Below are positions 1 to 34,884 of a stretch of 43,102 nucleotides of DNA, one piece after another. The notes beneath the pieces are model-generated. The model was not told the DNA's origin, ran no database searches, and was given only the letters and a program-made list of their open reading frames with translations. The number at the start of each line of letters is the position of its first letter. Within the stretch, counting starts at the first letter, position 1. Origin of the DNA: a virus. The stretch covers positions 1 through 43,102 of the IMG/VR virus record IMGVR_UViG_3300032893_000113, one strand, 5' to 3'. A program made the translations under genes and the position numbers.

Positions 1-3000
1 AGCGGTTAACTTATCGCAGACATCCATCAACTTCGGAGGCGTCAATACTGGCGTCACCAGTTCCCCGGTTATGGTCACGCTCACGAATACGGGCGGGCAA
101 ACGCTCACCATTTCAGGCATTTCGATTACAGGCACCAATGCCGCCGACTTTGCGCAGACGAACACTTGCGGCTCCTCAGTCGGGGCGGGAAATACTTGCA
201 CGATTTCGGTCACCTTTACGCCGAGCGCAACAGGATCACGGGTTGCCTCGGTGCAGATTTCCGATAACGCCTCCAACTCGCCGCAGAGCATTGCTCTGTC
301 GGGCACAGGCACGACGCCCGCAGCCCCGGCAGTCACGCTATCCGCGACTTCGCTAACCTTTGCGGCGCAGGTTGTGGGCACCAGTTCCGCTACTCAAGTG
401 GTTACGCTGACGAACTCAGGCACGGCAAACCTGACATGGACATCGCTCTCGATTACGGCAGGCTCGAGCGATTATTCGCTTCCGGTTGGTTCGAACAATA
501 CATGCGTTTCGCCACTCGCCGCGGCGGCAAACTGCAAAATTGGCGTAACCTTCACGCCAAGCACGACGGGAACGCGCACCGGAACTGTTACCTTAGCCGA
601 CAATGCCAGCGGCAACCCGCATACCATTTCTCTGACAGGAACGGGCACAGCGGGCGCTTTGTCATTCGCGCCCAATCCGCTCGCATTCCCGAATCAGACG
701 GTCAACACGTCCAACGTTCTTTCGATCACCGTCAACAATACTGGTTCGGCCAAAGTTACCTTTACCAGCATTTCCATTACGGGCACGAATGCCAACCAGT
801 TCAATGAAGGCAACAATTGCGGCACGAGCCTTGCAGCGGGCGGAACCTGCCTTATCAATGTCATTTTCTCGCCCACGTCAGCGGCGAGCTTCAGCGCCAA
901 CGCCCACGTCGTCGCCTCGACAGGGACAACGAATGTGCCTTTGACCGGAACAGGCACGGCGGCAGTCGGCCAGACAGCAATACAGGGGCAGGGAACGACC
1001 TCAACCGCATGGCAGGGCATTCATGGCGGCCAAACCATTCACCCTAGCTATTTCGGCCTGCATGTCAATGGCGGCACGGCCAACTGGCCCCCCACGCAGG
1101 GCTTTACCTCATTTGGCACATTGCGCCTTTGGGATAATGGCTCACTGGTTGCGGGCAATCCGACCGAATGGGCACCGTCCTACTGCACCGGAACAAATAC
1201 GCCTGTGGGCTGCTCGGCTGGCAATACCACGCCGCCAACTGTGCCCGTTAATTACACCTTCAACAACCTGAAATCATGGCTTCAGTTGATGAAAACGCAA
1301 TGCACGCTGCAATCCGGGCAGTGCGGCATCGTCATGAACTTGGGGCGCACTCCGCAGTCGATTTCGCCATACCCAGCAGAAACGCAATGCGGCTATCAGT
1401 CGAATGGCGGCGGCCACGGCCAATGCTATCCACCTTACGACATCACAAACGTAGGTGGGGGAACTCCGCCAGCTTGCTGGGTGAACTCCGCAACCTGCAC
1501 CACGGGCTGCTATTCGCAGCAAACTTGCAATGATGATGTTTCAGGGACAGATGCCTACTGGAAAGATTGGGTTGGGCAACTGACGACTACGATTGCTGGT
1601 CTTTCCCCGAGCACCTACCAAATCACCAACATCATCTTCGAGCCTTGGAACGAGATTACATCGGACCTCGCAGTCGGCAATGCAGGCCAGTGGTACAACC
1701 GCAACGAAACCTTGCAGGAAGGCCAACTTGCCATTGATGCGAACACCGTGATTCAGGCCAATAAAGGCTCGCTCAACTGGATCACCACGCTTCCGAACTC
1801 AACGACATGGAACCCGAATAACGTTTCTGGCGGCCATGCGGTGACGCAGTACCAAAAGAATGTTTTATCCGTCTCAAATGTTCCTGCCAATGTGCAGGCA
1901 TCTTCGGTACACGGCTATGTCTCTAACGTCGGCCTTCCCAATGGGCCGGAATCCACTGCCGCGATCCTCATTGATCCGACCTATGGGTTGCGAGCGCCAA
2001 ATTTCCTCTCCAATCAGGCAGGCGCAACCTACACGATTTATGACACCGAAATTTCATGGGGCACGGGCACGCACCTGTCAGACCCCGACCAGCAAAAAGC
2101 TTATGCGGCACGCACATATCTGCTGGGCTGGGGATCGGGCGCGAGCACGGTCATTTGGTACACATGGGATTTAGACAACCATTCCTCAACGAATACCGAT
2201 TCCACGCAGATGTGGAGCGCGACCAATACGGGCGCACAAGTCAATTGCACTGTGGCGCTCACGACCGGGTATCTATGCCCGCCCGGAGTCGGAATCCTCG
2301 CAGCCTATGATTGGATGGTCGGGAACGTTCAGCTTTCGCCTTGTGCTGGCCCGGTTCCGCCAGCAGGCCCCGGCATTTGGTCATGCCAGTTTCAGAAACC
2401 CGATGGAACGCTGCTGTTAGCGGTTTGGGATGCTTCGCAAACCTGTTCCGCTGGTGTCTGCACCTACTCGAATTTTCCCGTTCCGGGCAATTATACGAAG
2501 TACGCCACGCTCGAAGCGCCAACCACCTTCGTGAATGTGGGGAACACGGTGCAGATTGGCATCAAACCGATTCTACTGTCGAACAATATCCCCACGCTCA
2601 CCAGTACGAACCTTTATTGCACGCAAGGCTTAACGAATCCCTATTATGGCGTGGTCAATTATCCGGGCGGCGTCACAACGGATGGCCCTGCAACCCTTCC
2701 CCAGACTTGCAATTATTCCGCGACGTCGGCCACGCCTACCGAAACTTTCGGCTATCCGTCAGGCTCGCAATGCCCCAATACGACCGGAGCCGGACACGTT
2801 ACAACCAACGGTGTGTGTTGGGTTGGCAATCCGGGCGACTTGATCCCGAGCGCCAATTCGAGCGATTTCCACAACAATGGCACCGATCCCCGAGCGGGCC
2901 TGCCTGTCGATTACACCACCATCCAAGCGGCGGTAACGGCCTCAGCTTCAAGCAATGGCATTCACTTCAAGATTCTGCCCACATCGGACAATACGCCCAC

Positions 3001-5800
3001 GGGAACGCGCCGACAGTACCTCGAAAACATCACTTTCCCGAACAATACTGCCGGATGCAGCGCCGCGAATTGGAATTGGTTTACCACCGGAAACATGCTT
3101 GGATTACCCGATGAGAACACTCGTATCACGCCCGGATGGATGGGCGTTACCAGCCTCTATGGGCGGCCAAGTTTTCAGGTTCCACTTGTCGCGGGCGTTT
3201 ATGTTCCCCAAATCATCGGGCAGGCCAAAAACACGAACACGATTCAATGGGACTGGTCTACCTGCAATACGCGCTTCATTGGCTTGGAAGTCACGACGGC
3301 CAGCGGCATCCAGAATAGCGGCGAAATCATGGGCAGGCCGGCAGGCGCATTCGGAACGGGAACCATTTCCGGCTCGACATTCTATGCTCTCGGAACTTTT
3401 GATCTTGACTGGAATAGCTCGGCAATTGGGCCAGTCAACAACTACGACGTTGCGGTTTCCTCAGTTGCGAGCACCACGCAGCTTACCTTTACCAGTTCAC
3501 AATCAACGCTGACAGCCGCGACCGGAGTTTCGGGCTGCGCCAATAGCAAAGGCACCAATGTCGGATGCGGCGCAACCGGATATGCCGTCTATACGGGCAG
3601 CTTTACACCATCGGCATGGCCTGTCGGCTTGCCTATCACGCTCGGGGGCTGCTCGGCGGGCACCAGCGGCGATAAAGCTGCCGTTGAAGGCAATGCGGAG
3701 TTTGTTGCATCGGCCACAGCCACGACCATTACAGCAGCGACAACCGCGCAAACCAGTTCAAGCGTTTCGGGCTGCACTTTGGGACCAAGCGGGGCATTCA
3801 ATATTGCGGCCATCCCCGATTCGATCGTCGTAGATCGCAACATCATTCACGGCGGAAACTCGAACACATTCACCAATGTTTCAGGCGCGAACGATGTAGG
3901 CATCAATATCGGCGGCACGAATATGACCGCCATCAACAACTATATTGCTGACATCTGGTGCAATGTCGCAACCGATTCCGGCGCACACCTTTCCTGCACA
4001 GAGTCACATGGGATTGATGCCGGAATCGCTGGAATGCAGCACACAGTAAAGATTGTCAATAATTTCATCGAAGCATCGGATGAACCTGTATTTATGGGCG
4101 GCGCGGTTGAAACGGCTCCCATTACCGACGTCGAAGTGCGGCGCAATCACTTCTACCACCCACTCTATTGGGATGCGGATTGTGATGACGGTAACGTCAC
4201 CTATGCGAGCACGCCGCTTGCCTTCTGTGGCGGCACTGCGCTCGTAAAGGCCACGCCTTACGTTCCAAACACCATTTCCACCATCAGCATGAGCGGAACA
4301 ACCGAGACGGTCACAGCCACGGCAACACTCGGCTCGGGCGTGAACTTCGTCAATCATGAAGTCGTAATCTCGGGATGCTCTGGTGGAACGAATCTCAACG
4401 GCAGCTTCCGCATTGCGACCAAGACCACAACTTCCATCTCATTTATCAATCAGGCTGGTAGTGGCACCTGTTCAGGCGGGCAGATCGCCATCGCTTTGCA
4501 GCCCACGGTAAAGAACTCGACCGAGTTCAAGATGTGCGTGCAGTGCTTGCTTGAGGCGAATATGCATGACCGTGTTTGGGGGAATGCGGCCACGGTCGGG
4601 CCACAGCAAGGCCAACTGCTGAATCTGAATCCCATCAACAAGCCCAACGATTCCTTCGCACATCCGACCAGCGTTTCCAATGTGACTGTCCGCTATTCGG
4701 CAATGGCTGACGGCAACAAAGGCATCATCATCGGCAACGAGAATCACCCCGGCCCGATGGGAGCTCTAGGGCCTGTCAGCGTTCATGATGTTTCGATTGA
4801 CCTCAATATTTCAAAATGGAATTTGCCCTACAACTGGCAGCCGACAGGCGTCACCATGACAGGAACGGGCGACCAGTGTTCGGTCTATACCAACGGATAT
4901 TCCGCGCCTTCGCAGCCGCAAAACATCACATTCAATCATGTGACATGTGCTCCCTCGCTGATTGGCGGCGCTCCTGTTCCCACCAACCCACACGTTCTGC
5001 TGATGCAGACAACCGATAATTCCAACCGCACGGCTGGAAATGCGGCAACGGGCGTGGTCAATGTCGCGCCAATCTCAGGCTCGGCTTGCATCAATATCGG
5101 TGGGCCGCTTCCGGCAAGTTGCGTAACTTGGGTGTCTGGCTCGCAATTTAATACCACGGCGCTCGCATGGCCGGGGCAGCAGATCGAAGTGAATAGCTCG
5201 TTCTATACGATTGCGACCGTCCAAGATGCCACGCATTTAACGATCTTCGATGCTCCGGGCACGATTACGGGCGGCTCCTACTTTGTCAGTTCGACTACAG
5301 CTGCCGCGCAAACTCCCCCACTCACGCCTTGGCCGTCGATTACCTATGAGAACAACATCGGATCAGGCGCGATCTATAATTCCGCATTCAATCCCTATGT
5401 GAATCTGTTCCCGCAAAGCGGCTCAACGGCTGCTTGTTTTGGCCCGAATATTCTCACGACTGCAAGCTCCAATCAGACGCCGATTTCCGCCAGCACCTTC
5501 CCGAGCGGCTATCTGGATTCGCACTGTGGAACGACGCTTATCAACGGCGTCACAAATGCCGACACGCAAAGTCACCAATTAGGGCCAGACACTTCCGGCA
5601 ATCCGGGCGTCGGCTTCACGCTTTTTACGGATGGCAATATCAGCAACTTGTTCTCGCGTGGAACCAACAATTACACGCTTTGTTCCGCAGTCGGTGGAAC
5701 CTGCACGGGCGTCAGCATGGGCCATGCGGCAGGGAACGACGGCGCAGACATGGGCGCGAACTATCAGCTTTTGCAGAACTATCTTCAGGGGGTTGAGTAA
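1..5800 (+). CDS. Giant multidomain surface/tail protein, 5' end missing: ASH-type repeats, clan-A-like glycosidase, beta-helix
   Basis: The reading frame is open from base 2, so the true start lies outside the window; about 1,932 residues are visible. Three immunoglobulin-like repeats of the choice-of-anchor-D/ASH type begin near bases 2, 329 and 656, each with a VTLTN core and a closing SGTGT-type motif. From about base 1000 to 2570 comes a TIM-barrel glycosidase-like domain: EPWNEI supplies a WNE acid/base Glu (codon at 1652) and YDTEISWG a candidate nucleophile Glu (codon at 2048), the layout of clan GH-A enzymes such as GH39 or GH5. From about 2590 to the end, Asn- and Gly-rich turns after a DYTTIQAAV opening suggest a right-handed beta-helix as in tailspikes. 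ASH repeats are typical of host secreted proteins. A role in binding or cutting surface glycans is inferred; exact GH family and substrate are unknown. Probably continuous with the gene starting at 42955. Stop overlaps the next start (TAATG). Confidence 0.8.
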   Translation, partial: AVNLSQTSINFGGVNTGVTSSPVMVTLTNTGGQTLTISGISITGTNAADFAQTNTCGSSVGAGNTCTISVTFTPSATGSRVASVQISDNASNSPQSIALSGTGTTPAAPAVTLSATSLTFAAQVVGTSSATQVVTLTNSGTANLTWTSLSITAGSSDYSLPVGSNNTCVSPLAAAANCKIGVTFTPSTTGTRTGTVTLADNASGNPHTISLTGTGTAGALSFAPNPLAFPNQTVNTSNVLSITVNNTGSAKVTFTSISITGTNANQFNEGNNCGTSLAAGGTCLINVIFSPTSAASFSANAHVVASTGTTNVPLTGTGTAAVGQTAIQGQGTTSTAWQGIHGGQTIHPSYFGLHVNGGTANWPPTQGFTSFGTLRLWDNGSLVAGNPTEWAPSYCTGTNTPVGCSAGNTTPPTVPVNYTFNNLKSWLQLMKTQCTLQSGQCGIVMNLGRTPQSISPYPAETQCGYQSNGGGHGQCYPPYDITNVGGGTPPACWVNSATCTTGCYSQQTCNDDVSGTDAYWKDWVGQLTTTIAGLSPSTYQITNIIFEPWNEITSDLAVGNAGQWYNRNETLQEGQLAIDANTVIQANKGSLNWITTLPNSTTWNPNNVSGGHAVTQYQKNVLSVSNVPANVQASSVHGYVSNVGLPNGPESTAAILIDPTYGLRAPNFLSNQAGATYTIYDTEISWGTGTHLSDPDQQKAYAARTYLLGWGSGASTVIWYTWDLDNHSSTNTDSTQMWSATNTGAQVNCTVALTTGYLCPPGVGILAAYDWMVGNVQLSPCAGPVPPAGPGIWSCQFQKPDGTLLLAVWDASQTCSAGVCTYSNFPVPGNYTKYATLEAPTTFVNVGNTVQIGIKPILLSNNIPTLTSTNLYCTQGLTNPYYGVVNYPGGVTTDGPATLPQTCNYSATSATPTETFGYPSGSQCPNTTGAGHVTTNGVCWVGNPGDLIPSANSSDFHNNGTDPRAGLPVDYTTIQAAVTASASSNGIHFKILPTSDNTPTGTRRQYLENITFPNNTAGCSAANWNWFTTGNMLGLPDENTRITPGWMGVTSLYGRPSFQVPLVAGVYVPQIIGQAKNTNTIQWDWSTCNTRFIGLEVTTASGIQNSGEIMGRPAGAFGTGTISGSTFYALGTFDLDWNSSAIGPVNNYDVAVSSVASTTQLTFTSSQSTLTAATGVSGCANSKGTNVGCGATGYAVYTGSFTPSAWPVGLPITLGGCSAGTSGDKAAVEGNAEFVASATATTITAATTAQTSSSVSGCTLGPSGAFNIAAIPDSIVVDRNIIHGGNSNTFTNVSGANDVGINIGGTNMTAINNYIADIWCNVATDSGAHLSCTESHGIDAGIAGMQHTVKIVNNFIEASDEPVFMGGAVETAPITDVEVRRNHFYHPLYWDADCDDGNVTYASTPLAFCGGTALVKATPYVPNTISTISMSGTTETVTATATLGSGVNFVNHEVVISGCSGGTNLNGSFRIATKTTTSISFINQAGSGTCSGGQIAIALQPTVKNSTEFKMCVQCLLEANMHDRVWGNAATVGPQQGQLLNLNPINKPNDSFAHPTSVSNVTVRYSAMADGNKGIIIGNENHPGPMGALGPVSVHDVSIDLNISKWNLPYNWQPTGVTMTGTGDQCSVYTNGYSAPSQPQNITFNHVTCAPSLIGGAPVPTNPHVLLMQTTDNSNRTAGNAATGVVNVAPISGSACINIGGPLPASCVTWVSGSQFNTTALAWPGQQIEVNSSFYTIATVQDATHLTIFDAPGTITGGSYFVSSTTAAAQTPPLTPWPSITYENNIGSGAIYNSAFNPYVNLFPQSGSTAACFGPNILTTASSNQTPISASTFPSGYLDSHCGTTLINGVTNADTQSHQLGPDTSGNPGVGFTLFTDGNISNLFSRGTNNYTLCSAVGGTCTGVSMGHAAGNDGADMGANYQLLQNYLQGVE

Positions 5801-10728: not shown

Positions 10729-11172
10729 TCACATGAAGTATCGCGTCACATCGGCAAGAATCTCTCGCTTTAATGAGCAGATTTTGTCGCCGCCTACGAT
10801 CTCTATAGGTTCATGCATCGCCACCAACCAAACCCTATCTCCTTTGAAGTTGCTCGGTGAGAGCGTGGCATGCAAGGCCCCATTCGAGCATGGCGTTAGC
10901 GGCGGCGGTAGTTCCTCTATCATCCCCACTGAGCGAGCGCCGCCCTTACCGCCATTGCTAGGAGTGCCATTGGCGTTGGATTTCCAAAGTGCAAGCAAAG
11001 TATTTGGTTTCGGTTCTGGGGCCACGGATTTTATGACGGCCTGCACATATTCGCCGTCGCCGTAGCCGTCGCCGTCGCCGTCGCCGTAGCCGTCGCCGTA
11101 GCCGTCGCCGTCGCCGTAGCCGTCGCCGTAGCCGTAGCCGGAGCTTGGAAGCGTTCCGTAAATCAGTTCCAC
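10729..11172 (-). CDS. DUF7666-like protein with N-terminal Gly-Tyr-Gly-Asp repeats
   Basis: A 147-residue protein. After MELIYGTLPSS comes a low-complexity tract of GYGDG/GDG units (about residues 12-40). A globular domain follows with the pattern C..GALHATLSP, DRVWLVAMHEP and DKICSLKREIL, which I recall from a widespread phage/prophage domain of unknown function (DUF7666). GTG at 11172 is chosen over ATG at 11187 because GGGAGGAAGG lies between them as a ribosome site. It overlaps the DUF6948-like gene by 10 bases; these two families often occur together in phage genomes. Function unknown. Confidence 0.6.
   Translation of the reverse strand: MELIYGTLPSSGYGYGDGYGDGDGYGDGYGDGDGDGYGDGEYVQAVIKSVAPEPKPNTLLALWKSNANGTPSNGGKGGARSVGMIEELPPPLTPCSNGALHATLSPSNFKGDRVWLVAMHEPIEIVGGDKICSLKREILADVTRYFM
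11052..11140. repeat. In-frame hexanucleotide-type minisatellite coding for (GYGDG)n
   Basis: About 90 bases made only of GCCGTC and GCCGTA units (plus-strand reading), in mixed order, encoding Gly-Asp and Gly-Tyr pairs on the minus strand. All units are 6 bases, so gain or loss of units keeps the reading frame. Such tracts are prone to slippage and to assembly collapse, so the copy number seen here may not be exact. Confidence 0.85.
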
Positions 11173-11453
11173 GGCCCTTCCTCCCATTTCGCCTGAGCGG
11201 ACGGCGAAACCTCTACAATCGCCGTGACTTTGTTTAGAGTGAGGCTCGGCACGGCTGGTCCGACTTTACAATTATTCGTCGGTCCTCCCGCAGCCAGACC
11301 CATAAAGCCCTTTACGTCGGCAGACCAGTAGACGCAATTTCTTGCACGCTCGATGGTTACGGAGCCATTCACGGGCGGCTCAGACATGTACCCGAAAAAC
11401 ACGCCACGGAACTCCGTGGTTACCATAACTGCTTGCTCTTTTTGCTTTTTCAT
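11163..11453 (-). CDS. DUF6948-like phage protein
   Basis: A 96-residue protein whose core, VTTEFRGVFFGYMSE, ARNCVYWSADVKGFMGLAA, GPTNNCKVGPAVPSLTL and a final AKWEEGPWN, matches my memory of the DUF6948 family: a small beta-rich domain found in many siphovirus and podovirus genomes. ATG at 11453 overlaps the DUF551-like stop (ATGAAATGA region) and has GGGAG upstream. It overlaps the next gene by 10 bases. No biochemical role is established. Confidence 0.65.
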   Translation of the reverse strand: MKKQKEQAVMVTTEFRGVFFGYMSEPPVNGSVTIERARNCVYWSADVKGFMGLAAGGPTNNCKVGPAVPSLTLNKVTAIVEVSPSAQAKWEEGPWN

Positions 11454-18721: not shown

Positions 18722-19261
18722 TTGAATGTGCAGAGTCTTTCTAAAGACGAGCTCAGGCGGCTCCTTGATGTGGCCCGCGCACACCGCGAGCGTGACTGGC
18801 TCATGATCCTCGTTGCTTATAACCACGGCTTGCGAGTCTCGGAAGTACTTGCAATCACGAGAGATGACGTGCAAGGCGGCTTTCTTCGAGTGCAACGGCT
18901 GAAAGGCTCAAAACGTACCGTGCAGCCGCTAATCTGTCACGCAGATCCGCTCTTGAGCGAAGGCCCCGCGCTCATTGAATTGGCTCGCAAAACTCTCCGG
19001 AGCCGACCGTTATTCAATGTCAGTCGCGTCCATGCCTGGCGTCTCATGAAGCGCTACGCCGCAATCGCCAACGTCGCGCTCCACAAGGCTACCCCGCACT
19101 CGCTCAAATCCTCGTGCGCTCGCCAAATTATTGCGACAGAGGGCGTTCCCGCTACACAGGAATGGCTCGGCCACAAATCCGGCAAGTCTACCCTTGAATA
19201 CACCAAACTGTCCGCTGAGGAAGCGGCAGCAGCCGCCAAACGTGCTTTAAGCGGTGTCTGA
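18722..19261 (+). CDS. int: Compact tyrosine recombinase/integrase
   Basis: A 179-residue catalytic-domain-only tyrosine recombinase. Visible active-site elements are Arg38 in NHGLRVSEVL, His126 and Lys129 in PHSLKSSCA (the usual HxxR position carries Lys), His151 in WLGHKSG and nucleophile Tyr160 in LEYTKL. A block RLKGSKRTVQPL matches what I recall of a compact family of about 180-200 residues in which HxLK is normal, so this is probably full length rather than truncated. Start is TTG 18722 or GTG 18728; neither has a ribosome site. Expected role: integration/excision or circle resolution by site-specific recombination. Confidence 0.78.
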   Translation: MNVQSLSKDELRRLLDVARAHRERDWLMILVAYNHGLRVSEVLAITRDDVQGGFLRVQRLKGSKRTVQPLICHADPLLSEGPALIELARKTLRSRPLFNVSRVHAWRLMKRYAAIANVALHKATPHSLKSSCARQIIATEGVPATQEWLGHKSGKSTLEYTKLSAEEAAAAAKRALSGV

Positions 19262-28996: not shown

Positions 28997-30229
28997 ATGG
29001 CGAACCTTTTTTTAAACACAAACTGGATTTCCATGGAAGTGTTGCGGCTTCTGGTCAACAAGTTGACCGTGGCCGAATACTTCAACATGGAGTGGGAAAA
29101 GGATTTCAAGAAAGAGTTTGCGGTTGGCTCGACTATTCAAATCAAATTTCCCCAAACCTTCACGATTCGCAACGGCCTTGGCTATGATCCGCAAGGCATC
29201 AACCGGATTTCCACCACCATCAGCTTGGATCAGGTTTTCGGCGTCGATTTCCAGTGGGATGACTATGAAGCCGCGATCAAAGCAGAGCGTTCGGAATCAG
29301 AAATCCGGCAGCAGTACCTCGAGCCGGCGGCAGCCCAGCTTGCTCAAGAAACTGACTCACGCGCCGCGCAGTTCGCTTATCAGAATGCCTCTGGCGTGGT
29401 CGGCGTACTCGGCACCAACTTCACCACGGTAGCAACGCCCAACTCTGCCCGTGCCTACCTCATGCAAAAAGCCTGTCCTCCGGGCCGCCGCGTGATGTGC
29501 GTATCGAGCAGCCAAATGGAGTCATTTTCGAATAACCTGACGAACTTCTTTCACCCCGGTGATGAGATTTCGCAGGCATTCAAGGATGGTTACATGGGGC
29601 GGCAGGGCGGCTTCGACTGGTTCGAGTCCCAATCGCTCTATTCGCATACCGCTGGCACTTGGGCGGGATCGGTAACCGTTCATGGCGGCGGGCAGTCTGG
29701 CACTTCGCTGGTCATCACGGGCACAAACGGTGACACGCTCAATCTCGGGGATAAATTCTCCATTTTGAATGTGAATGCCGTCAACCCGAGAACCCGGCGC
29801 ATTGCCGGCCCGGCAACCGCGCAAACCTTCACTGTGACGCAGGCAGCCACACTCACAGGCGGAAATGACACCATCCAAATCCTGCCTTCGATTTTCGGCC
29901 CCGGCTCGCAGTATCAGAACGTTGACGCTCTGCCAGCAGACGGCGCAGCGCTCACGCTCTGGCCCGGTACGACCTCGCCCAGCGGCAAGGTTGGCACGGT
30001 CGGGTTTGCCCTCTCCAAATATGCATTCGCTCTTTCTGGCGCAAAGCTGTATAGCCCGAAAGCAGTGGAAGTTTGCTCTCAAAAACAGGACCCGAAAACT
30101 GGCATCGCCGTGCGCTATGTCAAGGCTTGGGACCCGGTACGGTCAATGCAAATCAATCGCTTTGACATGCTGCTAGGCTTCGGCAACCTGTACCAAGACA
30201 ACGGCGCAGTTGCGATTGCGATGGCATAG
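28997..30229 (+). CDS. Major capsid (coat) protein, P22 gp5 family
   Basis: A 410-residue protein. The N-terminal block ANLFLNTNWISMEVLRLLVN, then KLTVAEYFN and GSTIQIKFPQTFTIRNG, is typical of the P22 coat family (HK97-like fold). The middle region (about residues 215-290; Thr/Gly/Val-rich with TVTQAATLTGGNDTIQI) fits an inserted beta domain as in P22 gp5. The end (VRYVKAWDPVRSMQINRFDM and the final LLGFGNLYQDNGAVAIAMA) also matches. A ribosome site GGGATAGGAA precedes the ATG. Its N-terminal block recurs in the antisense gene at 32149-32475. Confidence 0.88.
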   Translation: MANLFLNTNWISMEVLRLLVNKLTVAEYFNMEWEKDFKKEFAVGSTIQIKFPQTFTIRNGLGYDPQGINRISTTISLDQVFGVDFQWDDYEAAIKAERSESEIRQQYLEPAAAQLAQETDSRAAQFAYQNASGVVGVLGTNFTTVATPNSARAYLMQKACPPGRRVMCVSSSQMESFSNNLTNFFHPGDEISQAFKDGYMGRQGGFDWFESQSLYSHTAGTWAGSVTVHGGGQSGTSLVITGTNGDTLNLGDKFSILNVNAVNPRTRRIAGPATAQTFTVTQAATLTGGNDTIQILPSIFGPGSQYQNVDALPADGAALTLWPGTTSPSGKVGTVGFALSKYAFALSGAKLYSPKAVEVCSQKQDPKTGIAVRYVKAWDPVRSMQINRFDMLLGFGNLYQDNGAVAIAMA

Positions 30230-31367: not shown

Positions 31368-32204
31368 ATGGCTGTCACGCCTCCCACTGGCGAAGTTCCC
31401 GTAGGTTATACCGATCTTGACATCATTACCGATGCCCTGATCGAAACCGGGGCAGTTGCGCCCGGAGAAGCGCCCGAGCCGGAAGTCGGGCAATGGGCAT
31501 TTCGCCGCCTGAATGACCTGCTGGATGAATGGGGATGTCAGCGCAAGTATGTCTATTCCACAAGCTTCGAACTTTTCACGCTGGTGCCCGGTTTATCGCC
31601 GCATACGATTGGGCCAGCGGCAGGCGCGACATTCAGCGTTCCGGTACGCCCGGTAAGGCTCGAATCGGCTGCCCTGATTCTCAATACCGGAACCGGGCAG
31701 GGCGCTCAAATTGTTGATTTGCCTATCAACATTCGGGATGCAACATGGTGGGCGCTCAATCAGGTCAAAGCCATTGAAACCAATGTGCCGACTGACGTGT
31801 TCTATTCCCCGGATTGGCCGAATTGCAGCCTGTTTTTCTGGCCTGTTCCCAATCAGCAGCAACAGGTTCGGTTGCAACTCTGGAATCAAGTCTATCAAGC
31901 CGACCAGATTACCGATCCGATCGGCGGACTCAACACAGCGTTATTTCAGCTTCCTCCGGGCTATCGCGCCGCCGTCACATCAACTCTTGCCGAGCAGCTT
32001 TGCCCCGGCTTAAGCAAGGAACCAAGCCCTCAATTGATTGAGAAAGCACGGCGTCAAAGGGTTGCGGTGCTGGGCAACAACGAGAAATCTCCGCGCATCT
32101 CGACACAAGACTTTGGGATGCCCAAAACAGGCGGCAAAGGCGGCTATTTCAATTGGGCGAGCGGGGATTTTGGACCGCCAAGTTCCACGGGCGGGGGAGT
32201 CTGA
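31368..32204 (+). CDS. Head-completion/tail accessory factor, P22 gp4-like
   Basis: A 278-residue protein. The N-terminal half, YTDLDIITDALIETGAVAPG, FRRLNDLLDEWGCQRKYVY and a beta-rich core, matches the gp4-like tail accessory family (adaptor under the portal); it is longer than P22 gp4 (166 residues) by a C-terminal Pro/Gly extension. Position before a gp10-like gene agrees with P22 order. It would form a ring closing the portal after packaging. Its 3' end overlaps the antisense Tat-signal gene by 56 bases. Confidence 0.72.
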   Translation: MAVTPPTGEVPVGYTDLDIITDALIETGAVAPGEAPEPEVGQWAFRRLNDLLDEWGCQRKYVYSTSFELFTLVPGLSPHTIGPAAGATFSVPVRPVRLESAALILNTGTGQGAQIVDLPINIRDATWWALNQVKAIETNVPTDVFYSPDWPNCSLFFWPVPNQQQQVRLQLWNQVYQADQITDPIGGLNTALFQLPPGYRAAVTSTLAEQLCPGLSKEPSPQLIEKARRQRVAVLGNNEKSPRISTQDFGMPKTGGKGGYFNWASGDFGPPSSTGGGV

Positions 32205-32475
32205 TTTTAAGTATGCTGCCAGTGCGCGTATGCTGCCAGTGTGCGGGAATATCTCTGTTGAAATGTTCCACGAAAACCAACTTTTCCTTCAAGATTCGCA
32301 GCGATTCAGCAGTGATCCATTCTGTATGAAGGAATGCGTTTTCTGGCAAAACGAGCGATTCGGGAATCACAATCTTGGAAGGAAATGACCATACGCGGCC
32401 AAAGGGAATCGCTTGCTCAAGTGCGATTCCGCCCGCCAGCATCCCGAGAGCTTTGAGAAATCCTCTGCGCTCCAT
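32149..32475 (-). CDS. Antisense gene: twin-arginine signal fused to a coat-protein N-terminal fragment
   Basis: A 108-residue protein on the opposite strand inside the head operon, filling the gap between gp4-like and gp10-like genes. MERRGFLKALGMLAGGIALE is an excellent twin-arginine (Tat) signal (RRxFLK). Residues 48-66, FLHTEWITAESLRILKEKL, match coat residues 5-23, FLNTNWISMEVLRLLVNKL, at 11 of 19 positions; EHFN and GSILKIRLP then align with EYFN and GSTIQIKFP. The remainder of the coat is absent. ATG at 32475 is preferred over 32517 because the Tat motif starts there. There is no ribosome site; the likely -10 element lies 6 bases upstream. It may be an exported or membrane-held capsid-derived peptide; what it does is unknown. 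Confidence 0.7.
   Translation of the reverse strand: MERRGFLKALGMLAGGIALEQAIPFGRVWSFPSKIVIPESLVLPENAFLHTEWITAESLRILKEKLVFVEHFNRDIPAHWQHTRTGSILKIRLPRPWNLAVQNPRSPN
32212..32245. repeat. Tandem 17-bp duplication inside the antisense gene
   Basis: TATGCTGCCAGTGCGCG at 32212-32228 is followed directly by TATGCTGCCAGTGTGCG at 32229-32245, one mismatch in 17 bases. It lies 3' of the gp4-like stop and inside the antisense coat-like gene, where it encodes AHWQHTRTGS. Because 17 is not a multiple of 3, the duplication shifted the frame of whatever was there before. Confidence 0.85.
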
Positions 32476-32489
32476 GAGCGAACTGTAAC
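32476..32489 (-). promoter_or_regulatory. Candidate leaderless promoter element of the antisense Tat gene
   Basis: On the minus strand GTTACAGTTCG (32479-32489) precedes the ATG by 3 bases. It contains TACAGT (32482-32487), a fair -10 box with TG in extended position (TGTTACAGT), exactly 6 bases from the start codon, so the start would be at or next to the first transcribed base. The same 11 bases occur before the antisense gene starting at 38492. Confidence 0.5.
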
Positions 32490-33944
32490 ATGAAGTTTGG
32501 CTTTTGCGGTGGTACATATACTTCCGAGTCGCCTATCGTGGATGACGAAGAGGCGATTAACTGGTACTGCGAAAACGCGGAATCACCAAACGCCCGCGCT
32601 CCCATTTCATTGTTTGACCGACCGGGCCTCAAGATTTTCGCGCAACTTCCCGAGCACAGCGTTCCCGGCTTGTTCTATATCAATGGGCGAACCTTTGCCG
32701 CATCCTCAAATCTGTATGAACTGAATACCGATGGGACATTCACACTGCTTGGCAATCTCGGCACCGCACCGCAGACACCGACACAGATCGCCGCCAATCA
32801 AAACCAGCTTCTAATTCTCAACAATGGCGCTCTGTTCGTGTTTACTCTGACGACCAACACATTCGTCGCCGTCAATATGGCGCAATTCAATGCGCCTGTA
32901 TCGCAGATCGGATTTGCTGACGGCTATTTCTTCGCCACGCTGAAAAACTCGAACACGTTTCAGATGTCGCAACTCGAAGATGGCACAACTTGGAGCGGCC
33001 TCGATATTGCGACGGTTTCACTGTTCCCCGATAACTTTTCGTCGTTCATCTGCGATCACCGCGAAGCATGGTTCTTTTCGAGCAAAAAGACTGCCGCATA
33101 CTACAACGCTGGCGCGGGATTTCCGCCGTTCATCCCCATTCAGGGCGCATTTCTAGAGCAGGGAGCCGCCGCCGCATTTTCCACGGTGCAACTCGACAAC
33201 TCAATTTTCTGGCTTGACCGCGATGAGCGGGGATCACTGATTGCCCGCCGCGCCAACGGCTATGTGGGCACGCGCATCTCGACTCACGCCGTTGAGCAGG
33301 CATGGCAGCAATACAAAACGATTTCTGATGCTGTGGGCTATAGCTTGCAGATGAACGGGCATTTATGGTGGGTGATTTTGTTTCCATCGGCTCCGAATGG
33401 CGGCGCGACATGGGTTTATGACGTGACCACGCAATTGTGGCATCGCTGGGCATTCTGGAATGCGACGTCGGGGCAGTTCTCCGCGCACCGCTCCATGTCG
33501 CATGTATTCGCCTTCAATTCGCATCTGGTGGGCGATTGGGCGACAGGCAACATTTACCAGATGAGCACCGACTATTCAGACGACTTCGGCAACCCGATTC
33601 GGCGTTTGCGACGTGCGCCCAGCCAGAACGATGAGAACAAATTCATTTATTACTCCCAGATCGAATTTGAAATGGAAACGGGGCTTGGACCGCAACCGCC
33701 TTTGCTCGACGGTAACGGCCAGCCCCGACCGCCCCAAGTAATGCTTCGCTGGTCGGACAATGGCGGAAAAACATGGAGCAATCAGTATTTGCTCAACTGT
33801 GGCAAGGCTGGCGAGTACAACGTGCGCGTGATTCGCCGGATGCTTGGCAGGGCACGAAAGAGAGTTTGGGAATTGAGTGCGACCGATCCGGTTCCGATGC
33901 GAATTGTGGATGCTTACCTAAAAGGCGAAGCCAGTACGGAATAG
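32490..33944 (+). CDS. Packaged-DNA stabilisation protein, P22 gp10-like
   Basis: A 484-residue protein, similar in length to P22 gp10 (472). MKFGFCGGTYTSESPIVDDE, NWYCENAESPNARAPISLFD and RPGLKIFAQLP form the characteristic N-terminus of gp10-like tail hub proteins, followed by repeated beta-propeller-type strands (LYELNTDGTF, GNIYQMSTDY) and a C-terminal VMLRWSDNGGKTWSN motif. It should plug the portal below the gp4-like ring. Its ATG lies 14 bases from the divergent Tat gene start. Confidence 0.85.
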   Translation: MKFGFCGGTYTSESPIVDDEEAINWYCENAESPNARAPISLFDRPGLKIFAQLPEHSVPGLFYINGRTFAASSNLYELNTDGTFTLLGNLGTAPQTPTQIAANQNQLLILNNGALFVFTLTTNTFVAVNMAQFNAPVSQIGFADGYFFATLKNSNTFQMSQLEDGTTWSGLDIATVSLFPDNFSSFICDHREAWFFSSKKTAAYYNAGAGFPPFIPIQGAFLEQGAAAAFSTVQLDNSIFWLDRDERGSLIARRANGYVGTRISTHAVEQAWQQYKTISDAVGYSLQMNGHLWWVILFPSAPNGGATWVYDVTTQLWHRWAFWNATSGQFSAHRSMSHVFAFNSHLVGDWATGNIYQMSTDYSDDFGNPIRRLRRAPSQNDENKFIYYSQIEFEMETGLGPQPPLLDGNGQPRPPQVMLRWSDNGGKTWSNQYLLNCGKAGEYNVRVIRRMLGRARKRVWELSATDPVPMRIVDAYLKGEASTE

Positions 33945-34106: not shown

Positions 34107-34435
34107 GCACGAAAACAGTTCTGTTTCCGCCGCCATCACGCGGATCAAATCTCACACAGCCGGAACTTAAGTGGCTGTTCTCGGTACAAAACTTGCTTCC
34201 GCTCATCACGGTCGATACATCTGGCGGGGCAGTGGCGATTCCCTTGCCTGTGGCGGGCGGAAACGCGCAAGTCGGACAATCGAATCAGAATCAGGAAATC
34301 ATCTACAAAAAAATGAGTGCGGACACAAATGTATGCACGATTACGGGGGCGATAGATGGGCCAGTGACATTGACCGCGCAATACGCCTTCGCACGGTTCA
34401 AATCCGATGGCACAAACTGGTGGCGCGTGGGGTGA
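34103..34435 (+). CDS. Small tail-type protein, position of P22 gp26
   Basis: A 110-residue protein with GGGGG 8 bases before ATG. The second half, TITGAIDGPVTLTAQYAFAR then FKSDGTNWWRVG, is a beta-rich repeat ending in the DGTNWW motif common at the C-termini of phage tail and fibre proteins. It holds the position of the P22 tail needle gene between gp10 and gp14, but has no coiled coil, so it is not a gp26 homologue by sequence. Function unproven. Confidence 0.55.
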   Translation: MSTKTVLFPPPSRGSNLTQPELKWLFSVQNLLPLITVDTSGGAVAIPLPVAGGNAQVGQSNQNQEIIYKKMSADTNVCTITGAIDGPVTLTAQYAFARFKSDGTNWWRVG

Positions 34436-34884
34436 TTGTCGAGGAAACACGCAATTTCCGATTGATCCGGCAAATTGCGACTCACCCAAAAGTCTTTCGA
34501 CAAATCTCAGATGACTTTTCCGACCGCGAAAAATGGCAGCCCAGCGAGAGCGAATTGGTGACCTACCTCATCGCCAAGCATGAAAACGTGCCTGTGGGCT
34601 TCATGGCGCTGATCCCGCGTAACGGGGCGACGGCAGAAATGCACTTCGCATTCCTGCCCGAAGCGTGGGGAAAAACGGCGGAAATCTGCTTTGCCCAGAT
34701 GCTTGCCTATGTATGGAGTCATACACCGTGGCGGCGGATCACGGGCGAGATTGCCCGGAAGAATCGGCTCGCCATCCGCTTTATTGTGAAAGCGGGCTGC
34801 AAAGTAATCGGCATCAATGAAAAGAGCTTACTGCGCGGAGGGGTTTTAGAAGATCAAGTCATTTTAGGGATTAGCAAACCATGA
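34432..34884 (+). CDS. GNAT-fold protein, position of P22 gp14
   Basis: A 150-residue protein with GTG start (GTGA overlap). VPVGFMALIPRNGATAEMHF, then WGKTAEICFAQMLAYVW and ARKNRLAIRFIVKAGCKVIG, follow the strand-helix order of the GNAT acetyltransferase fold, with the late conserved N..A...Y/F..K.GF segment. Phages of the P22 group carry a GNAT-like protein (DUF2824/gp14) here. No acetyltransferase activity is implied: the acetyl-CoA loop is not clear. An upstream open frame to 34171 only mirrors the neighbouring gene. Confidence 0.65.
   Translation: MIVEETRNFRLIRQIATHPKVFRQISDDFSDREKWQPSESELVTYLIAKHENVPVGFMALIPRNGATAEMHFAFLPEAWGKTAEICFAQMLAYVWSHTPWRRITGEIARKNRLAIRFIVKAGCKVIGINEKSLLRGGVLEDQVILGISKP

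Follow-up and report, generated by a model that had tools for sequence, protein, structure and literature searches.

A phage gene family that joins a constant twin-arginine leader to variable pieces of virion head proteins

Introduction

Why would a phage keep, antisense to its own head operon, a small gene in which a twin-arginine (Tat) leader is followed by part of a coat protein? The question is raised by a stretch of viral DNA of 43,102 nucleotides (IMG/VR record IMGVR_UViG_3300032893_000113), the whole of which we refer to as the window, and in particular by an ORF on its minus strand (32149-32475) that has 108 codons and begins MERRGFLK. The original prediction, made from the sequence of the window, was that this ORF gives rise to a Tat-targeted fragment of the phage's own capsid protein, sent to the membrane or periplasm, where it might block a superinfecting relative or disturb the capsid assembly of rivals. 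The comparisons described here place the gene in an undescribed family, in which a constant promoter-like signal and a twin-arginine leader precede a variable cargo of head-protein modules. We hold this architecture to be well established and assert it with high confidence; what the encoded proteins do is a matter on which our preference among several readings is much more tentative.

Results

The antisense ORF is present where it was predicted, with 108 amino acids and a stop codon (Table 1). Its leader scores 17.6 bits against the NCBIfam model TIGR01409 (TAT_signal_seq), above the curated cut-off of 16.7 bits and in agreement with the assignment as a Tat-type leader, and 15.7 bits against the Pfam model TAT_signal, which is under the cut-off of 22.7 bits. 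The identity to coat residues 5-23 at 11 of 19 positions is correct by direct count, and BLASTP aligns residues 46-99 with residues 3-57 of the window coat (19 of 55 identical, E = 2e-9). This match spans only about 55 residues, a full HK97-like fold of about 400 residues being absent, and judged by its sequence the gene encodes a coat fragment and not a coat. When the protein is submitted to structure prediction, the leader is modelled as a helix and the remainder is of low confidence; the prediction gives no confidence that the cargo folds by itself (pLDDT 58.9). The phage itself is probably temperate, since a tyrosine integrase gene is found in the window. Two further observations concern other parts of the window: the ORF at 34171-34884 (+), between the Hc3 and injection genes, has by eye the look of a GNAT-type acetyltransferase, and a (GYGDGDG)n repeat lies close to the N-terminus of the ORF at 10729-11187 (-).

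Table 1 Features of the window that bear on the antisense gene
Feature	Position	Strand	Evidence or remark
Whole gene, Tat leader and coat fragment	32149..32475	-	108 aa + stop; leader HMM 1.3e-23
Constant part, twin-arginine leader MERRGFLKALGMLAGGIALEQAIPFGRVWSFPSKIVIP, aa 1-38	32362..32475	-	Near-invariant in >50 loci; TIGR01409 above cut-off; codon-position divergence
Variable part, coat N-arm helix and next hairpin, aa 46-99	32179..32340	-	Homologous to coat residues 3-57
C-terminal run-out, aa 100-108 + stop	32149..32178	-	Antisense of adaptor gene 3' end; relatives' tails of same origin
-10-like box TACAGT at -12 from ATG, preceded by TGn	32482..32487	-	Implies leaderless mRNA
Major coat protein, P22 type, related to source of variable part	28997..30229	+	PF11651 1.3e-26; phrog_283 1.4e-53
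Head-tail adaptor gene, 3' end overlaps antisense gene	31368..32204	+	phrog_12985 1.1e-26; phrog_637 4.5e-5
Head-closure Hc3 gene, divergent neighbour	32490..33944	+	phrog_578 3.8e-94; start codon 14 bp from leader ATG
Tyrosine integrase	18722..19261	+	PF00589 1.7e-18

Searches of viral contigs with the window protein, and then with an alignment of leaders, yielded about 53 further loci that carry the leader, together with one additional contig in a betaproteobacterial MAG; repeating the scan with another alignment of leaders brought up the same 52 contigs. Homologues in related phages, the existence of which had been set as a check on the original prediction, have thus been found, the same leader being seen in more than 50 phage contigs. 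The carriers are uncultivated and mostly soil phages, and the leader is missing from 50,697 INPHARED phages and from the 399 genomes around the sole GTDB hit, save that genome itself. About 38 near-invariant residues make up the leader consensus, MxRRxFLxLLGxGxAGIALxxAIPFGRVWSFPKKIVIP, in which R4, F6, I23-P24, R27 to P32 and I35 are identical in the first ten members. The sequence that follows differs almost everywhere among members, and is both hypervariable and modular. Five loci have two copies each, and in L047 and L053 the two share 4 nt, an arrangement reminiscent of translational coupling. Divergence among 56 leaders by codon position is 0.34/0.20/0.59, a pattern from which we conclude that the leader evolves as protein; this, and the in-frame cargo described below, agree with the claim that the antisense gene is protein-coding.

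The leaders have the RR motif and the moderately hydrophobic stretch behind it that mark Tat substrates, RR being present in all 49 unique leaders, and 9 of 14 scanned members match TIGR01409 at E<=0.1. An A-x-A signal peptidase site at residues 17-40, on the other hand, is present in only 3 of the 49, so that the leader might possibly serve as an uncleaved signal anchor. Because this site is mostly missing and the cargo has no confident fold of its own, the proposed export of a folded capsid piece finds no support, and on these sequence and model data membrane tethering seems at least as likely. Two other ORFs deserve mention in connection with the leader. In L185, an extra coat N-arm piece (4797-4964, -) is located directly upstream of the Tat leader, and the ORF at 1746-2006 (-) in L191, near the portal gene, has a different twin-arginine start, MNRRSFLAVLAAPLIAQP, and is possibly a distant relative of the family.

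In the lineage of phages with P22-type coats the gene is without exception oriented against the head operon, and it occupies five gaps: Hc3/adaptor (in most cases), adaptor/next gene, injection gene/Hc3, scaffold/portal, and portal/next gene. It is found in 15 of the 44 relatives that possess both flanking genes and is missing in the other 29, several of which have directly abutting adaptor and Hc3 genes and hence a clean empty site. The overlap with the 3' end of the adaptor gene is 40-90 nt, and the C-terminus often runs into the neighbouring gene up to a stop codon. The conserved C-terminal tails (VAQLKS...GIPES, TAAFPPDSSHTPS), which we considered as a shared 3' element, are the antisense translation of the adaptor 3' end, reached by ORF run-on. 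An invariably antisense orientation, which we also considered, holds for the P22-coat lineage and not for other phages: in L014, L059, L017, L024, and L057, which have other virion types, the gene is co-oriented with the adjacent head genes.

A TATAAT-like hexamer (>=4/6) is seen at -18 to -10 in 33 of 52 distinct genes, compared with 11% of random sites, and it nearly always starts at -12 or -13 from the ATG; in four more (L006, L047a, L058, and L059) direct reading shows a box suited to the closest in-frame ATG upstream. It is kept in L014 and L059 despite their co-orientation. Shine-Dalgarno-like motifs are near background (12/57, or 21%, versus 11% for random sites). The spacing of the box from the ATG implies a leaderless mRNA, which we predict to be transcribed from the gene's own promoter-like signal.

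PHROGs scans of single cargos gave few matches, probably because such short pieces fall below the HMMER filters, and we therefore used profiles built locally from the lineage's own head proteins with a threshold of iE<0.01. At this threshold 30 of 58 cargos match head-protein profiles compared with none of 1160 shuffled family cargos, and the window cargo itself matches a coat-family HMM built from relatives at 2.2e-11. Kinship with the coat N-terminus at the level of profiles, another check set by the original prediction, is therefore borne out. In the strictest version of the test, for which overlap with annotated genes was trimmed off and all six frames were compared, reading in the frame of the leader gives head-protein matches for 25 of 55 unique cargos, and reading in the other frames for 0 of 275 translations. 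For roughly half of the cargos no significant head-protein match is obtained. Among predicted small ORFs in the same contigs, used as a control, 20 of 803 match at 0.01. Of these 20, 7 are genuine head genes in truncated form; coat pieces are seen in only a handful of these ORFs, amounting to <1% once the truncated head genes are removed. Cargos that are homologous to head proteins exhibit 35-55% identity without frameshifts. Estimates of dN/dS from close cargo pairs are underpowered, the pair L036/L037 having six synonymous changes and one nonsynonymous change in one gene and 0:2 in the other.

Four regions of the coat profile are matched by cargos: 4-75 (N-arm helix and next hairpin), 88-141 (start of the long spine helix), 246-310, and 388-422. 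Our coat model (pLDDT 60.5) has helices at 9-22 and 100-130, strands at 253-280 and a hairpin at 371-391, residues 32-98 being poorly modelled, and because of these helices, strands and hairpin the modules look like single secondary-structure units of the modelled coat. Other head proteins are also represented. An adaptor helix is present in the L028 and L038 cargos and, more weakly, in that of L043; the L036a cargo has a weak match to an Hc3 hairpin; L021 has a piece of an injection-type protein; and portal-like pieces in L047a and L006 are weak (best 0.012). TerL profiles have no significant match among the cargos. A terminase-like motif is present in 6 cargos compared with 0.25 expected, although the motif was picked after the sequences had been seen, and there is one weak own-contig match to a terminase source (0.063); because of the post hoc motif and this single weak match, a terminase origin of some cargos is suggestive only.

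Several cargos are mosaics. That of L001 combines coat 118-139 with coat 50-77, so that spine and hairpin are in swapped order, and that of L019 places coat 105-122 (spine) before coat 13-29 (N-arm). In L047a, coat 98-122 is joined to the portal-like piece, and in L008 and L023 the terminase-like motif is joined to a coat hairpin. Cargos may also be shared: L038 and L043, the insertion sites of which differ, have an entire cargo in common (55% over 62 aa, 1e-22), and those of L023 and L049 are 70% identical over 30 aa.

A further possibility, that the cargo is copied anew from the resident coat in each phage, is rejected as a general rule. The resident coat has a mean percentile rank of 0.38 among about 110 coats when compared with its own cargo (n = 22), and is the top match in only 2 of 22 cases; coats of other phages usually match a cargo as well as or better than the resident one does. 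In the window the resident coat ranks 21st of 111. An exception is provided by L017, which has a different coat family and a cargo that matches both that family (phrog_1357, 0.0062) and its own coat (47% over 45 aa, 9e-8). The window gene can accordingly not be viewed as an isolated piece taken from the coat of its own phage, since cargos in the family are drawn from further coat regions and from additional head proteins as well. The resident coat is generally not the nearest, so it seems that cassettes or modules are passed between phages.

Coat segments were also observed in other small ORFs. A segment from the C-terminal part of the coat (approximately 365-412 of the coat profile) is found behind different N-termini in L140 (1354-1878, +), L145 (1811-2179, +), L203 (1735-2274, +), and control ORFs in L018 and L028, and a coat spine-helix piece is present in L139 (123-572, -).

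Discussion

The reading that we consider most likely, and put forward tentatively, is that these proteins are made in the lysogen and, tethered to the membrane, interfere with the head assembly of related phages. In outline, the lysogen would make the cassette's own leaderless mRNA, and the Tat-type leader would tether the peptide to the inner membrane or the Tat translocase. The cargo would act as a mimic of a single head-protein interface, be it the N-arm, the P-domain/E-loop hairpin, the spine helix, the C-terminal hairpin, or a portal or terminase element, so that, upon superinfection by a related phage, the peptide would bind the matching partner and poison or mislocalise head assembly. 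We speculate that the tagged fragment might even drag its bound partner along, hitchhiker export of bound partners being an established property of the Tat pathway (PMC4273604). On induction, head-on late transcription of the resident operon would silence the gene and relieve self-inhibition; such an antisense switch-off is not general, because in phages with other virion types the gene points the same way as the neighbouring head genes. The diversity of cargos would fit an arms race over which rival head is matched, and that cargos usually match other phages' coats at least as well as the resident one is as expected of a weapon against relatives. Against interference, the Tat leader would remove an inhibitor of head assembly from the cytosol unless it is kept as an anchor, and isolated pieces of 20-60 aa may be unstable or inert; the cargos for which no significant head-protein match is seen, about half of the total, likewise tell against it.

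An alternative that we hold to be somewhat less likely is that the leader does the work, for example by engaging or jamming Tat or by marking the envelope, and that any small amphipathic helix or hairpin suffices as cargo, having been drawn repeatedly from the nearest abundant coding DNA, which is that of the head genes. Such an explanation would account for the conservation of the leader, which is far above that of the cargo, for modules that look like single coat secondary-structure elements, for C-termini that are often a mere run-on into the neighbouring gene, and for the half of the cargos that have no detectable source. It sits less easily with head homology that is strictly in frame and in the sense orientation (25 versus 0), and with cargo lineages that have been kept across phages at different insertion sites (L038/L043 and L023/L049). 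This retention of frame and of cargo lineages suggests that the cargo sequence itself matters.

The fragments might instead be decoys, which bind the host or rival defence proteins that sense head components and retain these sensors at the membrane, thereby shielding the resident phage. Terminase and portal are sensed by Avs and the major capsid protein by CapRel, and the presence of coat in many cargos, of weak portal-like pieces and of terminase-like motifs puts sensed proteins among the sources. The cargos also contain adaptor, Hc3 and injection-protein modules, however, and we know of no role for these proteins as defence triggers. Moreover, a decoy should track the resident coat, which is not specially close, and the family proteins themselves have no PADLOC match. 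We therefore regard this explanation as unlikely.

Regulation by the antisense transcript, rather than by the protein, would damp late-operon expression in the lysogen. Such a regulator would suit the promoter-like box, which is conserved and lies opposite the late operon, and the overlap with the adaptor 3' end, but it is made highly improbable by the conservation of the leader as protein, by a cargo that stays in frame, and by the co-orientation with head genes in other phages. A role in the resident virion or at its assembly site, with head pieces anchored through Tat serving to nucleate procapsids or to hold them at the membrane, would suit the location in the head operon and the origin of the cargo, mainly in the coat and other head or connector proteins. 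The gene is dispensable, however, since 29 of the 44 close relatives do without it and the adaptor and Hc3 genes directly adjoin in several of these, and its own promoter-like box and opposite orientation are unlike those of late genes; we consider this role very unlikely. Least probable of all is that the cargos are neutral debris, left where head-gene DNA happened to insert behind a Tat gene without selection, given that, hypervariable and prone to run-out as they are, about five-sixths of neutral captures should be out of frame whereas none of the 275 out-of-frame translations has head homology, and that homology at 35-55% identity persists without frameshifts.

Relationship to known systems

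The original prediction could point to no named system with this architecture, and our searches concur. We find no precedent for the family in INPHARED, in Pfam and PHROGs (apart from matches to the Tat signal and, weakly, to coat), or in PADLOC, for which 14 members compared with PADLOC-DB 2.0.0 match 0 families, and no paper that describes a leader joined to head fragments in the open-access literature searched. As far as these libraries and papers show, the novelty lies in the architecture, no described phage family having a fixed targeting leader joined to shuffled pieces of virion proteins.

Individual traits are nevertheless shared with other gene types. Phage morons are cargo genes that are expressed in lysogens from their own promoters inside late operons and are normally foreign. 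The Tat-leader gene resembles them in its own promoter-like signal, its optional presence, its clean empty site and its position between late genes, but differs in being made from head-gene modules and in being usually antisense. Polymorphic secreted proteins likewise have a constant N-terminal delivery part and a variable C-terminal part. Interchangeable C-terminal parts behind a constant export-type N-terminus are common to both, whereas in the Tat-leader family we see no toxin-like domain or immunity gene and the C-terminal parts derive from phage head genes. A separate observation concerns three ORFs in which a DUF1660-like zinc ribbon (MKRLxCLxxGHxWxxW...CxxC) precedes the coat 36-69 hairpin: L207:4657-4977(-), L152:5135-5434(-), and L140:5619-6062(-). 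Their match to the DUF1660 prophage proteins (PF07874) is sub-threshold (0.017), their N-terminal module differs from that of the Tat-leader family and has no Tat leader, and a scan for more genes of this kind returned only L140, L152, and L207.

Should the pieces act in trans, prophages would have a protein-level means to recognise and poison their relatives, diversified by recombination, and the family would predict which head surfaces are vulnerable. Should they be inert in trans, the family would still be a clear natural case of small genes repeatedly assembled from secondary-structure modules with retention of frame.

Returning to interference with rival heads as the preferred reading, the nearest phage parallel is Tab (tail assembly blocker) of the Pseudomonas prophage JBD26, which is constitutive in lysogens and blocks virion assembly by targeting the tape measure protein, self-inhibition being solved by a dedicated anti-Tab antagonist (PMC10884400). 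Both would be accessory prophage proteins directed against virion assembly in related phages, but Tab is not described as being built from virion-protein fragments or as having a Tat leader (PMC10884400). Captured Gag (Fv1, enJSRV) and itEBLN, which act against virus relatives (PMC6361761), offer a second parallel, in that pieces of viral structural proteins have been retained as accessory genes that counter relatives of the virus, as we suppose for the Tat-leader gene; they are, however, eukaryotic host genes and large single captures, with no export leader and no combinatorial shuffling. We therefore suggest, as tentatively as we favour interference itself, that the family may be a prokaryotic counterpart of Fv1/EBLN immunity, in which a constant cassette of promoter and Tat leader recruits and shuffles head modules from the wider phage pool, and lysogens would thereby gain diversifying, membrane-tethered inhibitors of head assembly, or decoys, for use against relatives.
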